34,758 bases of DNA from a virus, in the IMG/VR virus record IMGVR_UViG_3300033141_005122, positions 1 through 34,758 of that record. The stretch is one strand, 5' to 3'. A program made the position numbers and the translations under genes. This document shows, piece by piece, positions 5,622 through 25,034 of this stretch. How positions within the stretch are numbered: position 1 is the first letter of the stretch; the number at the start of each line of letters is the position of its first letter. The notes beneath the pieces are model-generated. The model saw only the letters and a list, made by a program, of their open reading frames with translations, made no database searches and was not told the origin of the DNA.

Positions 5622-6805
5622 TCATGGCCAACATAACCAGCTGGACTTCCAATTAGTTTTGCGTATTCATGGTCAGCGGCATACTCGGAACAATCGATTA
5701 CTACTATAGCATTTTTATTATTCAAAAGTTCTTCCGCTAATACTTTGGCAGTATAACTTTTACCAACTCCTGTCTGCCCAGTAAATAAAAAGGCTCCAAT
5801 AGGTTTTTCAGGATCTTTTAATCCAACACTAGCTCTTTGAATAGCGTCAACTAAATCATCGATAGCTTCGCTTTGACCGATTACCTTTTTTTTCATTAAA
5901 GACGGTAATTTTAACATATGATCAGTACTAACATCTCTAAATGTTTTATGCTTTTTGTTTCCATGTAACACCCTGTCTACCAACTCTTCTGGATTAGAAT
6001 ATGCTTCCTCCATACTAGAAAAAGGATCCATTGCTTCGTCATCTGCCGGTGAAAAAGAGTCTTTGTACAGATCATAATCTAAAAAGGGATTAACTTTTTT
6101 ACATAAATCATATAACTCATGAATAATAATGGGGGAAGGCACTCTTTGTGGAAGCCCCAACTTATCTAAAGTTACAAATAAATCTTCAACTTCATGAATA
6201 CAAACAGTAACAATATACTGTTCAAATACATGTCTACTTGTAAAATTTCTATTACCTAAAATAGTAATTTCACTACCAGGGTCAAATTGTTTTATAATAA
6301 TATATTGCCCTAATCTTTTCCAAAATCTCTGTACCTTTATATGCGGTAAATCATAAATATTAATAAGTTTGTTAAGAGCTTCTTTATTATTAGTTTTAGT
6401 ACTCTTCTTGTATACATTACGATCCCAATACTCATTATCTGGTAAAAGTGTACAAGACTCAATATCCATGTCATTTCGAATTTTTACCACGTTGTTTTGG
6501 TTAATAACTAAATTATCGGGATCAAAAACTGGGTTAGTTTTTAATATATGTTTTATTAATTCACTTCGAACTTGAAAAAGTTTTTCAGATGAAACACGTT
6601 TAGTTTTAATAAACTCTAATAAATCACGTATATTCATTATACATGTAGCCACTAAAAAGTCTTCGTATAAACTTTTAGCGATTAAACCCTTCTCCCTAGT
6701 AAAATAGGTAAGTTTATCATTGACTTCATCTTCTGGTATTATAAAAATTTTGATTTCGAAATCTAAAGCCTTTAACTTCTTAGTAACAATTTTATATTTC
6801 TCCAT
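5600..6805 (-). CDS. Clp AAA+ ATPase, N-terminal part, truncated by a frame break
   Basis: 401 residues. Residues 1-280 are a domain I do not recognise. From about 300 a Clp D2-type AAA module begins: GQSEAIDDLVDAIQRA, Walker A GQTGVGKS (343-350), then LIGSPAGYVGHEQGG and a premature TAG. Clp relatives continue from GG with about eight more residues before (R/N)PFS. Here those residues are missing and the frame is off by one, which fits a deletion of about 28 bases (22 to 31 possible). Such phage Clp proteins have a single AAA ring and a private N-domain, suggesting a role in unfolding or remodelling phage complexes. Inactive as written. AGGAG precedes ATG 6805; Rad52-like gene is 15 nt upstream. 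Confidence 0.88.
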   Translation of the reverse strand: MEKYKIVTKKLKALDFEIKIFIIPEDEVNDKLTYFTREKGLIAKSLYEDFLVATCIMNIRDLLEFIKTKRVSSEKLFQVRSELIKHILKTNPVFDPDNLVINQNNVVKIRNDMDIESCTLLPDNEYWDRNVYKKSTKTNNKEALNKLINIYDLPHIKVQRFWKRLGQYIIIKQFDPGSEITILGNRNFTSRHVFEQYIVTVCIHEVEDLFVTLDKLGLPQRVPSPIIIHELYDLCKKVNPFLDYDLYKDSFSPADDEAMDPFSSMEEAYSNPEELVDRVLHGNKKHKTFRDVSTDHMLKLPSLMKKKVIGQSEAIDDLVDAIQRASVGLKDPEKPIGAFLFTGQTGVGKSYTAKVLAEELLNNKNAIVVIDCSEYAADHEYAKLIGSPAGYVGHEQGGHFQ

Positions 6806-6819
6806 AAATACAGCTCCTA

Positions 6820-7770
6820 TTACTTAAGTTTATTTCCATATTGCAATACTTTAACTGCGTCCTTATAAGATAGTTGATCAAGTTCTGGAAATTTATCTGT
6901 TCCTAATGCCTTAAGCATAAGATCTTTATATGTTAAACCGTATTGATCCATTAATATAGTAATGGCCGTCTTTTGTACTGGAGTTAGAGGAGTTTGCTCA
7001 GTAGAATTAGGTACAAAATCTTTAACTACATTTTCTGGAATATCCGGCAGTTTATCAGCAGTACCTTTAACATCTTCGCTATTGATAGGAAAATCAGGTA
7101 TACCCGATTCATCTATAATTGGTGGATTTTGTTTCTTAGTATCATTATCTGGTTGTCTTGGTGCATCAAAATTAACAGGTGGATCAACTGGAGGCACAGC
7201 TACTTGATCTGCTTTATTAGACTCTACTACAGGAGCTGTAATATCAATAGGTGGAACAGTAGTATTTAACTCCGGCTGATTTACAGGTGGTATACTAATA
7301 GTATTATCTGGTACATCTAACATTGGCGATTCAAACATTTCCTGATTGTCACCTGGTATATCAATATCTTGTGATGATGTATCAGGATCTAATTTAAGAC
7401 CAACACCAAATCTTGAACATGCTACCTTAATAGCTTTAGATATCGCAGCTTTATAAGAATTCCCTAAGTCTATCGGCTGGTCTTTTTTAAATCCAGAAGT
7501 ATACCGTGCAATTAACTGACTCGCCACTCCATCATGGTATAACACAGAGACTTCGTTCCCAGGGTATACAGCTACTCTAACATGAGCTATTATGTAATCT
7601 TCTTCTTTAAATAACTTAATTATTTCGGTACTCCAATTACCTTTAAAAACAGAATTCATACGTTCTACCACATCATCTGCAGAAACATAGTAGAATGTGC
7701 GCCCTCCTTGACCTTGTCTAGCCTTTAACTTAAACGGTGCCTGTAAACTAGCTAAAACTTCATTGTCCAT
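6820..7770 (-). CDS. Rad52-family single-strand annealing protein
   Basis: 316 residues. The N-terminal 140 or so match Rad52/Sak-type annealing proteins: YVSADDVVERMNSVFKGNWS and SYKAAISKAIKVACSRFGVG. A long Pro/Asp-rich linker (about 150-260) follows, then a compact C-terminal helical piece (TPVQKTAITILMDQYGLTYK) that may bind a partner such as SSB. It would pair complementary single strands during phage recombination. It is the first gene after the promoter at 7807-7835, with AAAGGAG before ATG 7770, and heads the transcript that includes clp. Confidence 0.85.
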   Translation of the reverse strand: MDNEVLASLQAPFKLKARQGQGGRTFYYVSADDVVERMNSVFKGNWSTEIIKLFKEEDYIIAHVRVAVYPGNEVSVLYHDGVASQLIARYTSGFKKDQPIDLGNSYKAAISKAIKVACSRFGVGLKLDPDTSSQDIDIPGDNQEMFESPMLDVPDNTISIPPVNQPELNTTVPPIDITAPVVESNKADQVAVPPVDPPVNFDAPRQPDNDTKKQNPPIIDESGIPDFPINSEDVKGTADKLPDIPENVVKDFVPNSTEQTPLTPVQKTAITILMDQYGLTYKDLMLKALGTDKFPELDQLSYKDAVKVLQYGNKLK

Positions 7771-7806
7771 AGTAATTCTCCTTTACTGGTAAGGGTATTC
7801 ATTTAT

Positions 7807-7835
7807 ATTATAGCATAAAAAATTAAGAATGTAAA
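7807..7835 (-). promoter_or_regulatory. Promoter for the Rad52-like/clp transcript
   Basis: TTTACA (7835-7830), 17 bases, TATAAT (7812-7807) with TGC just before the -10. Start of transcription would be about 30 nt from ATG 7770. Same form as the promoters at 2548, 14348 and 29082. Confidence 0.85.
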
Positions 7836-7851
7836 TTTATTTATTGCACGA

Positions 7852-8124
7852 CTATATAAGTTTACGTTTTTGTTTCTGTTGGCCCACACGTCTTTTCTCC
7901 GATAAAGATGTCTGTTTCTGTATATGAGTTGCAGATGGACAATCTCCTAAACGCCACTTAATTTCTGGTATTACATACAGCTTACAATAATCATTTTCAA
8001 TCCTTTTACAACCTATACATTTATCAATTATTTTTTTACATTGTATTCCAAGTATACATTTATTATTTTTACGTGCACTACATACAGATTTTGGAATATT
8101 ACAAGTAATTAATAATTTACCCAT
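7852..8124 (-). CDS. Small Cys-rich putative metal-binding protein
   Basis: 90 residues. Cys residues at CNIPKSVC, KCILGIQC, CIGC, YC and a terminal WRLGDCPSATH motif suggest one or two metal sites (zinc or iron-sulfur). The C-terminus is basic (GQQKQKRK). ATG 8124 is chosen because it follows GGGAG and the end of the transporter gene; a longer frame upstream overlaps that gene. It resembles other phage Cys-rich small proteins with P-x3-W-x2-G-x-C, but I cannot assign a function. Confidence 0.75.
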   Translation of the reverse strand: MGKLLITCNIPKSVCSARKNNKCILGIQCKKIIDKCIGCKRIENDYCKLYVIPEIKWRLGDCPSATHIQKQTSLSEKRRVGQQKQKRKLI

Positions 8125-17293: not shown

Positions 17294-18205
17294 TTATAAA
17301 TCAATATACTCACAATAAACCAAATAGCTATCGCCACTAAAATTATTATTTACATGTAATGGAATTTCGATAAAAGCTTTATTGTTATCAATCCACACCA
17401 AATCGTAAAACACTTCTACCCTTAAAGCACGGAATTCTCCCGAAGTATCTAAAGCATTGATACTACTTAGCAAATCTTGTTTATATTGTTCTACATCAAT
17501 TTGTATTTGTGATTTACCAGTTTCTATCAAACTTGGTAATTGTTCTGTGAAAGATTTTTGAGGCATTAATATAGAATCAACTATAGATGACATATAAGGA
17601 AATCCAGTAAGTGGATTTATTATAGGTTCAGGAGAAATAAAAACCTGATTCATATAAGTCTCTAGAAAATGTTTCATACCCAATCGCCAACTACCATCTT
17701 TATATGAGCCTACTCTCACATCTATCCTATATAGATCTAGATCTTCACGTATTTTAGTAAATAACATAGCAGCTCTTAAAAGTACTTTTCTATAATCATC
17801 TAAAGCAAAGTAATTATTAGTACTTATTACATTCTCAACATAAGCACGTAGCTCTTCTAAGTTAAAAGACTCAACCCAAGACAGTTCAGTACCTCGTTCA
17901 GGCCACAGTACTAGATCTACATTTTGCTGTTCACACCATTGTAAGCACACTTGCTTTATTTGTTCGCTACTCTTTGATGGATAAATACCATACTCAGGGT
18001 ATACATTTGTAAATATTTCTCCAAGATTCATAAAGCCAACCATTACTTTATCAGCATGTTGTTTAGACTCAGCCACACACTGTTCATGACCCGCATGAAA
18101 ACTATCTAAGCTTTCTTTTCTTTGCATGCCTATATAGGCTATAGTGTTATTATATACAGATTTGCTGTACTTTTTACATTCACTAGTAGTAGTGATAATT
18201 TCCAT
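17294..18205 (-). CDS. PanC-like nucleotidyltransferase (pantothenate synthetase-related)
   Basis: 303 residues. FHAGHEQC is the HIGH-type ATP motif in the position used by pantothenate synthetase, followed by VGFMNLGEIF in place of the usual SIFVNPxQF. NPLTGFPYMSS resembles the later DxxGLAxSSRN segment but lacks its key Arg and Asn, so pantothenate synthesis is doubtful. It may adenylate another carboxylate. No panB, panD or other CoA gene is nearby; instead radical-SAM genes precede it by five bases. AGGAGG lies 12 nt before ATG 18205. Superfamily fairly sure, substrate unknown. Confidence 0.75.
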   Translation of the reverse strand: MEIITTTSECKKYSKSVYNNTIAYIGMQRKESLDSFHAGHEQCVAESKQHADKVMVGFMNLGEIFTNVYPEYGIYPSKSSEQIKQVCLQWCEQQNVDLVLWPERGTELSWVESFNLEELRAYVENVISTNNYFALDDYRKVLLRAAMLFTKIREDLDLYRIDVRVGSYKDGSWRLGMKHFLETYMNQVFISPEPIINPLTGFPYMSSIVDSILMPQKSFTEQLPSLIETGKSQIQIDVEQYKQDLLSSINALDTSGEFRALRVEVFYDLVWIDNNKAFIEIPLHVNNNFSGDSYLVYCEYIDL

Positions 18206-18209
18206 ACTC

Positions 18210-18695
18210 TTAGTTAGCCTCCTGTAAAAGTTTTTGTAACAATTCGCTGTTTAGCTCAAAGGATGGTGGAGTCCAAGAATTTAACTCAGAAAATAGAGAA
18301 AACATAGTTTTAGATTTTTTCAATAGATTCACATGTGAATTATATAAACTTAAAAATTTATTTAACAATAAACACAATTTTGACAATAAAATGTCTTTTT
18401 TATAATTTTCATTCCAATTATACACAATTTCTGAAAATATGCTACAAAAAGCTACCATTTCATAATTTAAATTGGCATTTAAAACTTTATCGACAATAAT
18501 AAAAGTAACGTCTTTAATTTTATTCTCATAATCATCAACTATATCTTCTTCTATAACCATCTTATAAATATGAAAGTTCATTAATCCTATTACAGACTTA
18601 ACACACTTTCTTTCTTCATCATTAAATAAGGACGACACAGATTTAGATAATAAAAGTTTATTCAAATCATCAATATACCTTTCATAATCAGACAT
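18210..18695 (-). CDS. Small helical protein of the radical-SAM operon
   Basis: 161 residues from ATG 18695, chosen because AAAGGAG lies just upstream and the codon overlaps the stop of the radical-SAM gene (ATGTCTGA). Highly helical, rich in Leu, Asn and Lys, no Cys cluster, no RRE-like winged helix that I can see. It pairs in position with the 143-residue helical protein after the other radical-SAM gene: each enzyme is followed by a small helical protein. A chaperone or substrate-binding helper is a reasonable guess. Confidence 0.75.
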   Translation of the reverse strand: MSDYERYIDDLNKLLLSKSVSSLFNDEERKCVKSVIGLMNFHIYKMVIEEDIVDDYENKIKDVTFIIVDKVLNANLNYEMVAFCSIFSEIVYNWNENYKKDILLSKLCLLLNKFLSLYNSHVNLLKKSKTMFSLFSELNSWTPPSFELNSELLQKLLQEAN

Positions 18696-20007
18696 TTCCT
18701 TCTCCTTTAATATATTTCTCATAAATATTGAGAGAATCAGCACACTCCAATGTATAAAAATATTTTAATATCCCTAATTTGTCCAACTCATCTATCAACG
18801 CAAAAACTTTAGCATGTTCTAATAAACAAATTGTAGGAGCTGTAATAAACATTTCACCAGAAAATTCATAATTAGCCCCTAAACATGGTCCACTACATAA
18901 ACCTTGTATGCCACATGATTCACAAAATGGAAATAACTTAAAGTTAAGAGAATATAAAGCAGTGACAAGATCTGGATTTATAGATTCAATACCAGTAATT
19001 TTATTACCATCATTTACAAACCTATACATATTAAATTGATCATAAGCCGTTCTATGGCACGGAGATACAGTTAAATCTCCCAATCTAAGTTGCATAGTAG
19101 ACTGCACTGAACATCCTAACCCCCTACCCATACCAAAGAATGCTGAGAATATATTAAATATTTTTCTTTTATGTATCTCCCATACAATATCTTTATCCTC
19201 TATATTTTCTTTTCTTAATCTATCAATAACCCAATTTACTACAAATCTTATAAAATTATAAAATTCCTTTATCTGTTTAAGATTCCACTCATGATTTCTA
19301 ACTTCCAATAAATAAATAGACTGCCAATTAATATTGTATTTTTCAAACATCTCTTGAAACCATAGAAAGTTATCTTTCCATAGTTCAATACCTTTACTAT
19401 ATATCATGGGATGGAAAGCATACCCCCATTTTGATTGTAAAGAAAATATTTTATCATAGAAATCTTCGGTTCTTTTCTTTCTGAAAAACGGCCTATTAAC
19501 TTCATCAAGATACTTTCCGTCAACGGATGCACTTAGGATAAGATTAATGTCATGGTATTTAGCTCTATTTATTAATTTATCTATCCTAGAAATCTTTTCA
19601 TCACTAAGAACAAAACTAAAATTAGTAGGTACAACGATATTATTATCTATAGAATGTTGTATCTGCCAATCTAATACTTTTTCTATAACTAAAAATCCTA
19701 TCTCTGTAGAAAAAGGCTCGCCAGAGAAAATTTCTATCATAGGAAAATATTTATTATTAGATAACCAATTTAATAATATTTCTAAATTATTTAATATACT
19801 ATCTTTCTTACTGATAGATGGTGGGTTCAAAAAATTACCATATTTATTATAATAACAATATGAACATCTCTGATCACAAACAGCTGTTATTTCTAATTCC
19901 AAAGATGAAAAATTGCTATATTTATCATCTACTAAAAATCTACGGTCTCTCCAAGATTCAAAAAATGTTCTACTAAGAATATGTAAAACTATATCATCCT
20001 GTATCAT
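18688..20007 (-). CDS. Radical SAM/SPASM enzyme A
   Basis: 439 residues. The radical-SAM cluster motif is CDQRCSYCYY near residue 43; FSGEPFS matches the GGEP motif. A SPASM-type C-terminal domain has CESCGIQGLCSGPCLG plus further Cys (CHR, TICLL), enough for auxiliary iron-sulfur clusters. Such proteins modify ribosomal peptides or enzyme residues. It lies 50 bases after two tetrapeptide-repeat proteins that are natural substrate candidates, and a second radical-SAM gene lies on their other side. GGGGA precedes ATG 20007. Confidence 0.92.
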   Translation of the reverse strand: MIQDDIVLHILSRTFFESWRDRRFLVDDKYSNFSSLELEITAVCDQRCSYCYYNKYGNFLNPPSISKKDSILNNLEILLNWLSNNKYFPMIEIFSGEPFSTEIGFLVIEKVLDWQIQHSIDNNIVVPTNFSFVLSDEKISRIDKLINRAKYHDINLILSASVDGKYLDEVNRPFFRKKRTEDFYDKIFSLQSKWGYAFHPMIYSKGIELWKDNFLWFQEMFEKYNINWQSIYLLEVRNHEWNLKQIKEFYNFIRFVVNWVIDRLRKENIEDKDIVWEIHKRKIFNIFSAFFGMGRGLGCSVQSTMQLRLGDLTVSPCHRTAYDQFNMYRFVNDGNKITGIESINPDLVTALYSLNFKLFPFCESCGIQGLCSGPCLGANYEFSGEMFITAPTICLLEHAKVFALIDELDKLGILKYFYTLECADSLNIYEKYIKGEGNV

Positions 20008-20056: not shown

Positions 20057-20413
20057 TTACTTGTAGGCAAAATAATCAGTATTACAAACTGAACTATCAT
20101 ATGATGAATTTACTGAACTATTATGACTACTACAATATCCTGAATAATCACTGCCATCTACTCCACTATCATAAGATCCGTTATAAGAAGAATCAGCCGT
20201 AGTATTCACAGTGGAGTCAACAGATGATAAATCACCAGAATTATATGAACCATAATAACTAGCGTCGTGTCCACTACATACAGAAGCATCATGACTAGCA
20301 TCAACCAAATTATCATCTAGCCAATCTACATTATTTCTAAGTTCTTGTAGCTCTACACCCACATCCCAATCTATCTTTTCATCTTCATTTAATGTAGACC
20401 ATGAAAAACCCAT
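20057..20413 (-). CDS. Tetrapeptide-repeat protein 1, putative radical-SAM substrate
   Basis: 118 residues. Residues 1-36 form a short module with FSWS and KIDWDVGVELQELRNNVDWL, like helical neck segments of phage fibres. From V37 to T112 come 19 tetrads in perfect register: position 1 mostly V/Y/H/D, position 2 D/N/C/Y/L, position 3 S/A/G/T, position 4 S/G/T. Examples are HDAS, VCSG, YNSG, HNSS, VNSS, YDSS. All three Cys (46, 94, 110) fall at position 2. It ends DYFAYK. Strong GGAGG before ATG 20413. With the neighbouring gene it is the likely substrate of two radical-SAM enzymes. Confidence 0.85.
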   Translation of the reverse strand: MGFSWSTLNEDEKIDWDVGVELQELRNNVDWLDDNLVDASHDASVCSGHDASYYGSYNSGDLSSVDSTVNTTADSSYNGSYDSGVDGSDYSGYCSSHNSSVNSSYDSSVCNTDYFAYK

Positions 20414-20431
20414 TTATATACCTCCATTTGT

Positions 20432-20875
20432 TTATGCGCTATAAAATTTTGCACTATTTAAACCAGTATCTTGAGATGATAAAACACTAGTATAATGAGA
20501 TCCACATACAGAGCTATTATCACCGCTGTCCACAGTAGCATTCTGTCCTGAGTCAACTGTCGTATTCTGAGTTCCATTAAATCCTGAATTATTAGTAGAA
20601 AGATCGCCAGATAAATCAGAACTGTCTACAGAGGTATGGTTTGTTGAATTGTCAGAATTACAACTATTATTATCATAAACATAATCAGCAGCATCTCTCA
20701 ACTCTTGTATATCTTGATCATCTATTTTATCGCCAGAACTTTTAGGGAATTTGGTCCATGAATAAGCTGTCAACCCTAATCTACTTATTAAGTTATCTAT
20801 ATTATTTTTAACTTCATTATGATGATCTTCCTGAATAGAATCACCAGGTACAATAGATGTCCATGAAAAACTCAT
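20432..20875 (-). CDS. Tetrapeptide-repeat protein 2, putative radical-SAM substrate
   Basis: 147 residues from ATG 20875; the ATG six bases earlier overlaps GGAGG and is too close to it. Two copies of the N-terminal module are present, FSWTSIVPGDSIQEDHHNEV and YSWTKFPKSSGDKIDDQDIQ, each followed by a short helix. From residue 71 there are 18 tetrads in one register, such as VDSS, DLSG, FNGT, QNTT, VDSG, QNAT, then KFYSA. Both Cys (72 and 124) occupy tetrad position 2. Composition is Asn/Asp/Ser/Thr/Gly-rich. Related to the protein at 20057 in both halves. Probably modified after translation, possibly virion-associated. Confidence 0.85.
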   Translation of the reverse strand: MSFSWTSIVPGDSIQEDHHNEVKNNIDNLISRLGLTAYSWTKFPKSSGDKIDDQDIQELRDAADYVYDNNSCNSDNSTNHTSVDSSDLSGDLSTNNSGFNGTQNTTVDSGQNATVDSGDNSSVCGSHYTSVLSSQDTGLNSAKFYSA

Positions 20876-20890
20876 GCTCATCCTCCTATT

Positions 20891-21322
20891 TTAACTATGT
20901 AGTATATTATAATAATGCCTACTCATATCAATTCCAACTGGTCTAGTTTTATTCATAAAATTATCTATTTTAGATACTAATATAGAAGAAATTCTTACTA
21001 AATTATCTACCGATAAACAATCACATGTAAGTTCATTTATAAGTTTAGCTTTTTTCATAACATCCGAGAATTTTTCATCGCCAAATATATTAACCCATTT
21101 AATAATAGACACACTAGAATTATAACAAAAATTTAATACTTCTTTAGATTCCACATTCCTTTCTACTAAACATCCTAATAAAATATCAATAAACCAATTT
21201 ATATCATCAACATTTATTTGCTTTGCTATATTACCACTAAGCTGTTCATTTATCATATTATAAATATCTCTTATTTTATTATATCTAGCACCGAACATAA
21301 AATATAATTCTCTGTCATTCAT
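20891..21322 (-). CDS. Small helical protein following radical-SAM enzyme B
   Basis: 143 residues, helical, four Cys scattered without metal-site spacing (GCLVE, FCYN, TCDCL). The start overlaps the radical-SAM stop as TAATG and follows GGAGGG, so the two are translationally coupled. Its place mirrors that of the helper after enzyme A. Not recognised; may deliver substrate. Confidence 0.75.
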   Translation of the reverse strand: MNDRELYFMFGARYNKIRDIYNMINEQLSGNIAKQINVDDINWFIDILLGCLVERNVESKEVLNFCYNSSVSIIKWVNIFGDEKFSDVMKKAKLINELTCDCLSVDNLVRISSILVSKIDNFMNKTRPVGIDMSRHYYNILHS

Positions 21323-22638
21323 TATATGTAACCCTCCTTAATAAGCCTACTTGTACAGAGTTCACCATAGCCATTTCCTAATAAAATAAATAAACTAGAA
21401 TCGGGTATAAACATACTACCAGACTTTACCAGTGATTCCAAATAACATTTTATTAACATACAATAAAAATTCAACATTTTTGTCATATCAAAGTCTTTAT
21501 AAATACTATTTATTACACCACACTCAGCTAAAGTATAACAAGAAGAGTATGCGGAATTTTCCAATAATCTACCAAAATCATTATAAACTCTGGATCTAAT
21601 CAAAAACTTTAATATATCAATTTCAGAGGACTCTTTATTGATAACACCAAGTTTACCAAGACTACTTTCATCTAAATTAGATTCTTTCAAATATAATTCA
21701 TCATCACTATAGAAACATCTATGGCAATATTGTAAAGAGTAAGGTTTTTCTCCTAGAGCAAAACATGAATCACCAGCAGAACATAGAAACATTTTATGTT
21801 TACTATAAAACTCTCTCTTTGAAACTAATTTATCTGCAGCTCTTCTATAAATATAAGACTCAGGAGGATTAATAAATCTATACTTATAATTTTCTTTAAG
21901 TATTATTTGATTCTTATATAACTTGTAAAAATTAATACCATCTTCTTTATTATAATTACAGTCACTAGAAATTACTACTGTTGGATCTACAATATTAGTG
22001 ATACGTATATTCTTAAATTCTGATAGTTTAGAAAATAAATCCTCAAAGAAATCATAGTAATATTTCAAATTATCAAAACTAGACAAATATTGTATATCTT
22101 CCCTCGCTGCAGTAGGTTTAATATGAGCAGATATAAATCTATTACTATCATTTAAGTGTTTAAACACATATAAAACATTTTCTATTATCTTATCTGTAGA
22201 TCCTAATTTTCTATTCTTATCAGTAATCTCTGGAGGACCATCAATAGATATCTGTATATCTAAATTCAATTTTCTAGGAAGAGATTTAGCAAAATCAATT
22301 ATATTATCAGGATTAGTCATAAAGTTAGAAGAAAAACTAACTGTTTTGAGTTTAGGAAATTCTTCTACAGCTTTCTGATAAAAATCCTTAAATAAGCTAA
22401 TAGTCAAAGTAGGTTCAGTGCCCCAATGACCAATACTCTCTAACTCATCGCCAAAATAATATTTAAGCTCTTCTAAATATTTTCCTGATTTAATTTTATC
22501 TATAATTGTTTTATGAATATCTTTTATTCTATCTACTTTAGAAATATAACAGTATTGACAGTCTAAATTGCACCACCCAGCTGAAAATAATTCACTAGCT
22601 ACAGCTACAGGTGTAGAGAAAAACTTATTTATAGACAT
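21322..22638 (-). CDS. Radical SAM enzyme B with SPASM-like Cys-rich C-terminus
   Basis: 438 residues. CNLDCQYCYI gives the iron-sulfur/SAM site near residue 23; GHWGTEPTL replaces the GGEP motif, and QISIDGPPE matches a conserved strand of SPASM maturases. Later Cys (FLCSAGDSC, YCHRCF, SSCYTLAEC) could hold auxiliary clusters. It is separate in sequence from enzyme A. The tail-fibre gene ends 20 bases upstream, so both are probably on the same transcript. AGGAG precedes ATG 22638. Confidence 0.92.
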   Translation of the reverse strand: MSINKFFSTPVAVASELFSAGWCNLDCQYCYISKVDRIKDIHKTIIDKIKSGKYLEELKYYFGDELESIGHWGTEPTLTISLFKDFYQKAVEEFPKLKTVSFSSNFMTNPDNIIDFAKSLPRKLNLDIQISIDGPPEITDKNRKLGSTDKIIENVLYVFKHLNDSNRFISAHIKPTAAREDIQYLSSFDNLKYYYDFFEDLFSKLSEFKNIRITNIVDPTVVISSDCNYNKEDGINFYKLYKNQIILKENYKYRFINPPESYIYRRAADKLVSKREFYSKHKMFLCSAGDSCFALGEKPYSLQYCHRCFYSDDELYLKESNLDESSLGKLGVINKESSEIDILKFLIRSRVYNDFGRLLENSAYSSCYTLAECGVINSIYKDFDMTKMLNFYCMLIKCYLESLVKSGSMFIPDSSLFILLGNGYGELCTSRLIKEGYI

Positions 22639-22658: not shown

Positions 22659-25034
22659 TTATCTAACCTTTATCCAGTGCCGTCCATTTACTTTAATTTC
22701 GTTATTAGGCCCCCAAAATTCTCTAGGTTCTGGTCTATCATAAATAGCAACTAACCTCTCAGGATAACTTCTCTTATCTTCTAATGTCATTTCAATAAGA
22801 TCTCCATTTTCATCATTAGTAAGAGGAGTACCAGGTTCATATTCTTTATCAACATATGCTAAAACCCATCCAGCTACAGCAAATGGTGCTTTATTATCTC
22901 CTCCAACTCCAGCAGCGATACCGTAAGTATCAGAACATACTCCTATAACTCCCAATTGACACCTCTCAGTACAAATCTTTGCACCAGATTTAGTAAGTCT
23001 ATAAACTTTACCATACACCACTTCATCATCAACCGGTTGAAAATCAGCTATATCGTTATAAACAGCATTATAAACCTTAGTAGCATAGAAATATCCATCA
23101 TAATTTAAACGTGTACTATTGGTGGGATCAGTAGTACCAGCATAAAAATACCCATCTGTTTTAGTTGTACCACTTATTTTAAGGGTACCAGTCATCTCAT
23201 CTCCAGTTACATTAACATATCTGGAATCATGAGTATGACCATTGATAGAGAAATATGATGAGTCATGCCCATCTAATAAATCAGCATCGAGACCAGATCC
23301 GCTACCATCTACATTCTTAATTTTTGCTAATACATCAGCATCTTCATAGTCAGTTAATAATACAAATCTAGCATCAGCTTCAGTTTCAGTAAAATACCTG
23401 TCATCATGAGTATGAAGAGTAGTATCGCCACTGCCAGTTAATCCATTATATTCACTTGCAGTTAAATGTTTGTAATCTCCATCATTTAATCCTGAAGTAT
23501 TATTATGTGAAATAGTAGAACCAAATACAACCCAAGCTGAACCGTTGTATGTATAAAGTTTATTCTCATCTTCCACCCAAACAGCAAGGCCTTCCGATTT
23601 AGCAGTAAATTCCCACGAACTACCATTCCACTCGGTTATTTCACCATCATGCCCAGACCAAGCACCTGTTGCACTATTAGCAATTAAGTACCTGTCTCCT
23701 GTAGAAGGAGATCCTGGAGGACTACTCAAATCTTTATCAATCACTGAATCTTGCCAATCTAGTCCTTGGACAACAGAGTCTACATAACTTTTTGTAGCTA
23801 AATGATCAGCCGATGTGGGGGTTATACCACCAACTACCCCCGTAAACGATCTTGTACCATCTACTCTAATATATTGCGTATGATCGTCATCTGATAATCC
23901 TGATAAATCACTGTGATCTAAATCTCCATTAGCCAAATCAACAGTTCCATTTAATTTAATGGTCTGACCAGTTCCACCTATATTAATATCCCCACCACTA
24001 GAATTATTGGAAATAGTGATATCATGATTTGAATAGGTGCTAGGAACTACTATTTGAACTCCACCTTCACCAGAAAAATAAAGATCACCCGAATCACCTG
24101 TCGAAGCAACTTTCAATCTTTGGCCTGAATCTGTAGAAATTGTAATAACATCACTTACATCTTCAATGACTTTTTTATTGTTAACATAAATAGATCCTGC
24201 ATCAGCCATCAAATCATGACAATATATAGTATTAAATTTTGCTGTAGCAGAACCAATATCACGTGTTGAAACCGACCCACTAGCTCCAGTCATTTCAGGT
24301 AGTAAATCGCCAGATAATTGTAGACTATTTGCATTAAACCTAGCTATTTCTGACGCATCAGCTTCAATAATAATATAGCCAGTTCCAGTATCAACAACTT
24401 CAACTTTAGAATTTCCTTCTGTTATTGAATCTTGGCTTAGTCCAGCAACACTGTCATCTACATACTTTTTATCCACTAAATTAGTATCTGCAGTAAAAGA
24501 TTTGTTAGAATTATAACTAATAACATTAGTAAATGCACGGCTTCCGTCTACTAATATATATTGTAAATGATCATCGTCACCTAACCCATTTAAATTACCG
24601 TGATCAGTATAATAACCCCCGCCTAATCCCGCTGAGGTTAAATAACTACATAGAATAATATCACCTACTTCAGGCGCAGCAGTAAAAGTTATCTGCGTAC
24701 CACTTACAGTATAATCATTGCCTGTTCCAGGTTGCTGCAAAATACCATTTAAATAAACCTCTAATGAATTAGCTTCTGGCGCCGCTGATAAAGTAAAGTT
24801 TGTGTTTGATCCATTAATAGACCCAGTAGGTGATTCATTAGCAGTCAAAGTTCCTACTTTTTCCCATTCAAAGGCAGAATTGCTAGCATTATATGTTAAT
24901 ACATCTCCATCATCAGGTGAATTCACAATATCTAATTTAATAGGGGTAATCTCAGCATTTTTAATGTGTGCTCCAGAAATAGTAGCATCAATTATTTGAT
25001 CTCCTCGAATCGCTGTGTTAAGCTTAGTTACCAT
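22659..25034 (-). CDS. Long tail fibre protein
   Basis: 791 residues, mostly fibre-type repeats: GDDDHLQYILVDGSRAF and SDDDHTQYIRVDGTRSF are paired repeats; HTHDDRYFTETEADARF and LDADLLDGHDSSYFS are motifs common in phage tail fibres. The N-terminus (MVTKLNTAIRGDQIIDATI) is also typical. The C-terminal 130 residues (YNDIADFQPVDDEVVYG to NGRHWIKVR) form a compact domain like those that end fibres of Gram-positive phages, possibly self-processing. It would bind the host surface. GGTGATGG precedes ATG 25034. The repeat-protein tetrads downstream echo its GHDSSYF motif. Confidence 0.92.
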   Translation of the reverse strand: MVTKLNTAIRGDQIIDATISGAHIKNAEITPIKLDIVNSPDDGDVLTYNASNSAFEWEKVGTLTANESPTGSINGSNTNFTLSAAPEANSLEVYLNGILQQPGTGNDYTVSGTQITFTAAPEVGDIILCSYLTSAGLGGGYYTDHGNLNGLGDDDHLQYILVDGSRAFTNVISYNSNKSFTADTNLVDKKYVDDSVAGLSQDSITEGNSKVEVVDTGTGYIIIEADASEIARFNANSLQLSGDLLPEMTGASGSVSTRDIGSATAKFNTIYCHDLMADAGSIYVNNKKVIEDVSDVITISTDSGQRLKVASTGDSGDLYFSGEGGVQIVVPSTYSNHDITISNNSSGGDINIGGTGQTIKLNGTVDLANGDLDHSDLSGLSDDDHTQYIRVDGTRSFTGVVGGITPTSADHLATKSYVDSVVQGLDWQDSVIDKDLSSPPGSPSTGDRYLIANSATGAWSGHDGEITEWNGSSWEFTAKSEGLAVWVEDENKLYTYNGSAWVVFGSTISHNNTSGLNDGDYKHLTASEYNGLTGSGDTTLHTHDDRYFTETEADARFVLLTDYEDADVLAKIKNVDGSGSGLDADLLDGHDSSYFSINGHTHDSRYVNVTGDEMTGTLKISGTTKTDGYFYAGTTDPTNSTRLNYDGYFYATKVYNAVYNDIADFQPVDDEVVYGKVYRLTKSGAKICTERCQLGVIGVCSDTYGIAAGVGGDNKAPFAVAGWVLAYVDKEYEPGTPLTNDENGDLIEMTLEDKRSYPERLVAIYDRPEPREFWGPNNEIKVNGRHWIKVR

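Follow-up and report, generated by a model that had tools for sequence, protein, structure and literature searches.

Organization of the locus

The window, by which we mean the whole 34.8-kb virus record analysed here, encodes two small proteins, R1 and R2, whose C-terminal parts are arrays of four-residue repeats (tetrads). With them lie two radical-SAM enzymes, A and B, and two small proteins, H1 and H2, and all genes of this cassette are on the minus strand (Table 1). In the R1 array, tetrads 1 and 14 have Cys at position 2, and the Cys of tetrad 1 is a boundary Cys that is conserved in the family. H1 was one of the seeds of our model for the H proteins; its membership rests on its position and on loci L003 and L056, which have two copies each. 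H2 ends in a PP[AS]-type motif common to the cassette family. A nucleotidyltransferase-like protein (17294–18205; weak PanC and cytidylyltransferase matches) follows the cassette both here and in L003. Elsewhere in the window, a reading frame at 177–1667 resembles, by inspection, a ThyX split by an intein.

Table 1 Features of the cassette and its upstream neighbour in the window
Feature	Position	Strand	Description
Tail-fibre-type protein	22659..25034	−	791 aa; next gene upstream; PHROG tail-fibre matches, DUF2793
Radical-SAM enzyme A	21322..22638	−	438 aa
H1, second H-like protein	20891..21322	−	Sits between A and R1
R1 array protein	20432..20881	−	149 aa; two W...E-[LV]-[RK]-type N-terminal units, then tetrad array
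R1 tetrad array	20450..20665	−	SCNS DNST ... LNSA, 18 tetrads (17 without SCNS)
R2 array protein	20057..20413	−	118 aa; one N-terminal unit (modelled helix 18–49), then array
R2 tetrad array	20078..20305	−	VDAS ... VCNT, 19 tetrads; position-2 Cys in three
Radical-SAM/SPASM enzyme B	18688..20007	−	439 aa
H2, small protein	18210..18743	−	Downstream of B; helical by inspection

The tetrad register is exact and conserved

Both arrays run without a gap in an exact four-residue register, as an earlier note on this DNA had described. Matched to a loose class pattern, R1 ran for at most 17 tetrads and R2 for 19, as compared with a maximum of 4 in 2,000 composition-preserving shuffles. Autocorrelation of S/T/G/A reached +0.85 (R1) and +0.88 (R2) at lag 4, and was still +0.77 and +0.83, respectively, at lag 16. 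The period of four also sets the arrays apart from pentapeptide and RTX repeats, which require five and nine residues.

To follow the register in homologues, we trained a model on 34 arrays from outside the window, with Cys masked. It needed 12 slips in 4,543 residues and gave Y/D/V/H/E/N at position 1, D/N/Y/K/H/C/E/R/L at position 2, S/G/T/A/N at position 3 and T/G/S at position 4. Across 65 arrays from 33 loci, some of which are close relatives of one another so that the counts are not independent events, the register slipped only 37 times in 9,086 repeat residues, and 1,427 of the 1,499 repeat residues aligned between close pairs kept it. Together, these results establish the tetrad register as real, exact and conserved. 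A feature that the earlier note had not seen is an alternation at position 1 with an 8-residue period: Val pairs occurred there at 0.24, 1.48, 0.35 and 1.55 times expectation at lags of 1, 2, 3 and 4 tetrads. Loci L056 and L058 contain 16-residue super-repeats of four tetrads. Array length extends to about 260 residues, and some arrays contain His-Xaa-Ser/Thr tetrads.

Within close pairs, the arrays were usually less conserved than their own N terminus and the enzymes, with one of 12 comparisons narrowly opposite. Identity between the R1 proteins of L005 and L011 was 0.87 in the N terminus and 0.32 in the array, and L009 and L013 shared 0.88 in B versus 0.59–0.62 in the arrays. Between close relatives, conservation was 0.54 at position 1 and 0.51 at position 2, and 0.38 and 0.44 at positions 3 and 4. 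Fast change under a held register would be consistent with a variable, host-facing part built on a constrained scaffold. AlphaFold2, run on a 29-row alignment, modelled the N-terminal helix of R2 and gave no confident fold for the R2 array of the window (pLDDT mostly below 50); the very regular array of L057 likewise yielded no fold. A low AlphaFold2 confidence is no sign of modification where the sequence is repetitive.

Repeat Cys residues occupy tetrad position 2

All five repeat Cys of the window lie at tetrad position 2: C46, C94 and C110 of R2, and C74 and C126 of R1 (C72 and C124 in the earlier note, whose count began at the second Met). This placement, which the earlier note had singled out, extends to the homologues, in which 86 of 89 Cys fell at position 2 under the Cys-masked model (2, 86, 1 and 0 at positions 1–4; 65 arrays, 33 loci). 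In the 34 arrays that exclude the window the proportion was 49/49, and in held-out arrays 18/20, the exceptions being one Cys in the C-terminal tail of L057 and one beside a slip in L060. Mutational supply fails to explain the bias: Tyr and Cys differ by a single base change, and Tyr is found more often at position 1 (518) than at position 2 (422). The P value is about 1e-27 and serves as a guide, as the sequences are related. Newly seen here, in 37 of 44 proteins, was a boundary Cys 11–15 residues downstream of an ELR motif.

The earlier note had also remarked that the residue four positions after each Cys (i+4) is D, N or Y, and had called conceivable a regular ladder of Cys-to-i+4 crosslinks made by ranthipeptide-type enzymes. 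The first statement is true of the window (D, N and Y in R2; N and Y in R1) but carries little meaning, as about 70% of all position-2 residues are D, N or Y. D/N/E was not enriched at i+4 (37/82 versus 1,073/2,014; 45% versus 53%, P = 0.18). It was enriched at i−4 instead (53/72 versus 1,056/2,024; 74% versus 52%, P = 0.0004), and Tyr was mildly enriched at i+4; these P values are uncorrected and come from related sequences. In CX3D motifs, PapB links Cys to Asp/Glu; it gave no crosslink in the transposed peptides tested, in which the acid precedes the Cys (PMC9413430). The arrays do not generally carry the Cys-X3-Asp/Glu motifs of a ranthipeptide precursor. Cys occupies about 4% of position-2 sites (about 1.4 per array), and 21 of the 65 arrays have none. 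A regular ladder is therefore not borne out by these counts.

A and B are PapB-like radical-SAM enzymes

Enzyme A carries a CxxxCxxC motif and conserved C286, C305 and C398. In B, CxxxCxxC (C44, C48 and C51) is joined by seven further Cys that are invariant among 20 members (C299, C317, C362, C365, C371, C375 and C394); B has the Cys expected of SPASM auxiliary clusters and A a reduced set. The best NCBIfam model for the window enzymes was the ranthipeptide maturase PapB, which matched every A and B enzyme (20/20 and 19/19). To this extent the ranthipeptide-type link drawn in the earlier note is supported, although the scores (52.7 bits for A and 54.9 bits for B in the window) lie far below the equivalog cut-off of 340 bits. 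Searched against solved structures, the two enzyme profiles matched the maturase 5wgg, which we take to be the thioether-forming CteB, at 1.7e-11 and 1.8e-9. We recognized no fused leader-recognition domain in A or B, and the window enzymes had no match among annotated phages. In L010 (7980–9350), and also in L012 and L073, the B gene is broken by TGA codons, several of them where relatives have Trp; this suggests a virus in which TGA is read as Trp. Broken frames occur also in L069, L072, L080, L088, L090 and L094.

The enzymes and arrays are found together at dozens of loci

In viral contigs, neither R1 nor A by itself brought up a close relative; alignments of the enzymes were needed. Profiles built from three enzyme pairs retrieved 11 viral loci with B and 30 with A, only some of the latter close, and five loci came from bacterial or archaeal metagenome-assembled genome (MAG) contigs. 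A wider scan with B returned 79 loci, about half of them close. Because the majority of loci come from metagenomic viral contigs or MAG contigs, their hosts and the completeness of the viruses are uncertain. The recurrent cassette consists of A, B, a small helical H protein and usually two array proteins, often adjoining a tail-fibre gene. Among 32 loci, clustering of open reading frames placed B in 32 (by selection), A in 30, H in 24 and R in 22 (BLAST), a tail-fibre-type protein in 12 and a glycosyltransferase-like protein in 8.

We also searched in the opposite direction, with the R1 N terminus alone. An alignment of 14 diverse R1 N termini proved too diverged for scanning, and a closer subset worked. 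It recovered 10 loci, 9 of them with radical-SAM genes; 8 have both enzymes, and in 7 of the 10 both A and B matched strongly. L151 has divergent radical-SAM genes, which match both models and are flanked by an R pair on either side. In L152, counted among the nine, the contig edge leaves a truncated SPASM-like end, recognized by inspection, and in L147, the tenth locus, the contig ends directly after R2. Enzyme searches thus find arrays and an array search finds enzymes, so the association holds both ways, and the link between radical-SAM enzymes and tetrad arrays, which recurs across dozens of loci, is strongly supported. Adjacency is not proof that the arrays are the substrate.

Two kinds of variation were seen around the cassette. 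The clostridial prophage L018 (5802–6560) has A, B and H with an array whose period looks to be about seven, not four; among 391 genomes of its class, only this known prophage was found. In L057 and L058, whose contigs end nearby, no enzyme A was seen and the arrays are free of Cys, and the two features may be connected. Glycosyltransferase-like genes adjoin the cassette in L006 (9873–10853), L151 (3697–4725) and L023 (11245–12276), and array Ser/Thr might also be glycosylated.

A probable link of the array proteins to tail fibres

In the window, the tail-fibre-type gene lies immediately upstream of the cassette, and the tail-fibre-type protein of L003 belongs to the cluster present in 12 of the 32 loci. 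Fibre-type domains occur on some relatives. The S74 fibre chaperone starts with SDxRLKK(D/N)I, and this motif closes R1 of L003 and the R proteins of L058. R2 of L003 is followed by it as well, in frame but beyond a stop codon, and an open reading frame of its own, with a Pfam match, encodes the rest of S74 there, a split chaperone arrangement spanning 6642–7993. R1 of L023 and L026 carries a LamG domain. R2 of L152 carries the glycine-rich domain PF21722 (Gly_rich_2), with a PHROG 2295 match that covers part of the array and this domain. R1 and R2 of the window had no fibre or chaperone domain match of their own, such domains being on relatives only.

A proposed model for array modification and its alternatives

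We consider it likely that R1 and R2 are tail or fibre virion proteins whose C-terminal arrays are the substrate of A and B. In such a scheme, the short N-terminal units would dock the R protein and guide the enzymes, which would modify tetrad positions 1 and 2, where the large residues lie; the small Ser/Thr/Gly/Ala residues of positions 3 and 4 would give access and regular spacing, and H would act as a helper. Position-2 Cys may be used at few sites (the boundary and scattered others) for a thioether or similar link. The product would be a stiff, chemically protected fibre or tip, in which the residues at positions 1 and 2 could keep pace with the host receptor and the enzymes would still read an unchanged register.

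What chemistry the enzymes would perform divides the explanations. A narrower form of the same proposal, to which we give a real but somewhat less than even chance, would place a non-Cys modification in every tetrad (for example a C–C link, cyclopropane, epimerization or desaturation at position 1 or 2), in the manner of TvgB, which acts on each TVGG Val (PMC9062424), with Cys incidental or used once. It accords with the higher conservation of positions 1 and 2 and the period-8 alternation of position 1, and Cys-free arrays that retain the cassette fit it better than they fit a Cys ladder. No one residue is common to all tetrads, however. The ladder, in which PapB-like enzymes join each Cys to an i+4 acceptor in a series of thioether rings, is unlikely: the PapB match of all A and B enzymes, the CX3D chemistry of PapB (PMC9413430) and the fixed position of Cys speak for it, but many arrays have no Cys or few, Asp, Asn and Glu are enriched before Cys and Tyr after it, and the scores lie far below the PapB cut-off.

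Other readings separate the arrays from the virion or from the enzymes. If the R proteins were secreted or intracellular RiPP peptides, for instance antimicrobials carried as viral cargo, the layout of enzymes beside a repetitive precursor would resemble radical-SAM RiPP clusters; this too we find unlikely, given that we noticed neither a transporter nor a protease gene in the cassettes, that the arrays adjoin tail-fibre genes and can bear S74, LamG or glycine-rich domains, and that they can be so long. It is quite unlikely that the arrays form an unmodified β-solenoid or similar structure and that the radical-SAM genes serve another substrate. The super-repeats of L056 and L058 and the period-8 alternation would suit such a fold, which AlphaFold2 did not produce for the R2 array of the window or for L057, and the two-way association of arrays and enzymes argues against a separate substrate. 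Low-complexity drift without function, suggested by the biased composition, is scarcely conceivable with so few slips and Cys at one position despite divergence to 30–50% identity. Modification of a tail-associated array by A and B remains the explanation that we prefer.

Relation to known systems

Several characterized systems share parts of this arrangement. PapA/PapB (NF047865) has a radical-SAM/SPASM maturase, Cys involvement and four-residue spacing (CX3D); here CX3D motifs are not general, D/N/E is enriched before Cys rather than after it, and a viral array protein, probably associated with the tail, is the target. In TvgA/TvgB, a period-four precursor repeat likewise adjoins a radical-SAM/SPASM enzyme, and the product is cyclopropylglycine in TVGG repeats; that system combines a single invariant motif with a single enzyme and also has genes for an oxidase and a transporter/peptidase (PMC9062424), whereas the window family has variable tetrads, two enzymes, an H protein and tail genes. 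The CXXX-repeat target family (TIGR04115) has period four and Cys at one fixed position, but by its name a Cys in every tetrad, and A scored 25.6 bits against a cut-off of 350. The His-Xaa-Ser system, whose radical-SAM enzymes are named HxsB and HxsC (PMC9062424), also pairs two such enzymes with a repetitive target; it differs in target and gene set, and HxsB (TIGR03978) gave 32.3 and 26.8 bits against a cut-off of 370.

Several radical-SAM genes have been reported in the Campylobacter phages CP220 and CPt10 (PMC2853527), the Aeromonas phage 332-Vera (PMC12390700) and pelagimyophage clusters (PMC7029224), in some reports among tail or host-recognition genes; these papers call the enzymes unusual or suggest a metabolic role, and the excerpts that we consulted point to no repeat protein as a target. 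Enzymes of the CP220 type are related only distantly (about 20% identity to B of L018), and no tetrad array was seen near the Campylobacter phage radical-SAM enzymes. Among open-licence papers we found no published description of this system. The enzymes are of a known kind; what is probably new is the combination of paired radical-SAM enzymes with a viral protein that is strictly periodic and probably belongs to the tail.

A possible wider class of modified phage arrays

Distant phage radical-SAM loci also adjoin periodic proteins; these are leads, and their arrays differ in period. CTCDCNY-type arrays with an S74 start lie near other radical-SAM genes in L104, L113, L114, L127 and L132, and CTCDCNY-like octad or heptad arrays in phage proteins of L034 and L125 are likewise near such genes. 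In the cultured Campylobacter phage CP220, a CTCDCNY repeat protein lies about 2 kb from one radical-SAM gene. CXXX-type arrays in phage proteins stand beside radical-SAM genes in L036 (5025–6935), L046 (10751–13720) and L041 (5964–7943), and other short-period arrays lie beside related enzyme pairs in L079, L085, L098 and L100. In L079 (5145–6815) and L085 (4733–6550), YcaO cyclodehydratase genes lie upstream of the related radical-SAM pair and of a Cys/Asn/Ser-rich repeat protein.

We put at slightly under even the chance that, in many viruses of anaerobes, a two-enzyme radical-SAM system modifies a periodic fibre or tip array, the tetrad family being one branch and the heptad, octad and CXXX arrays others. 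Most of what is known about peptide-rewiring radical-SAM enzymes comes from small secreted natural products. The many radical-SAM genes of some phages, certain of them among structural genes, are described as highly unusual in two reports (PMC2853527, PMC12390700); the wider reading, if true, would explain such genes among structural ones. The strict register, with its variable positions 1 and 2, would offer a natural, programmable repeat substrate for enzyme engineering. That dozens of other viruses have the same package points to chemical modification of a part of the tail by some phages. If phages do modify structural proteins in this manner, they would have a new means of building or protecting a fibre, and the abundance of radical-SAM genes in several phages would be accounted for.
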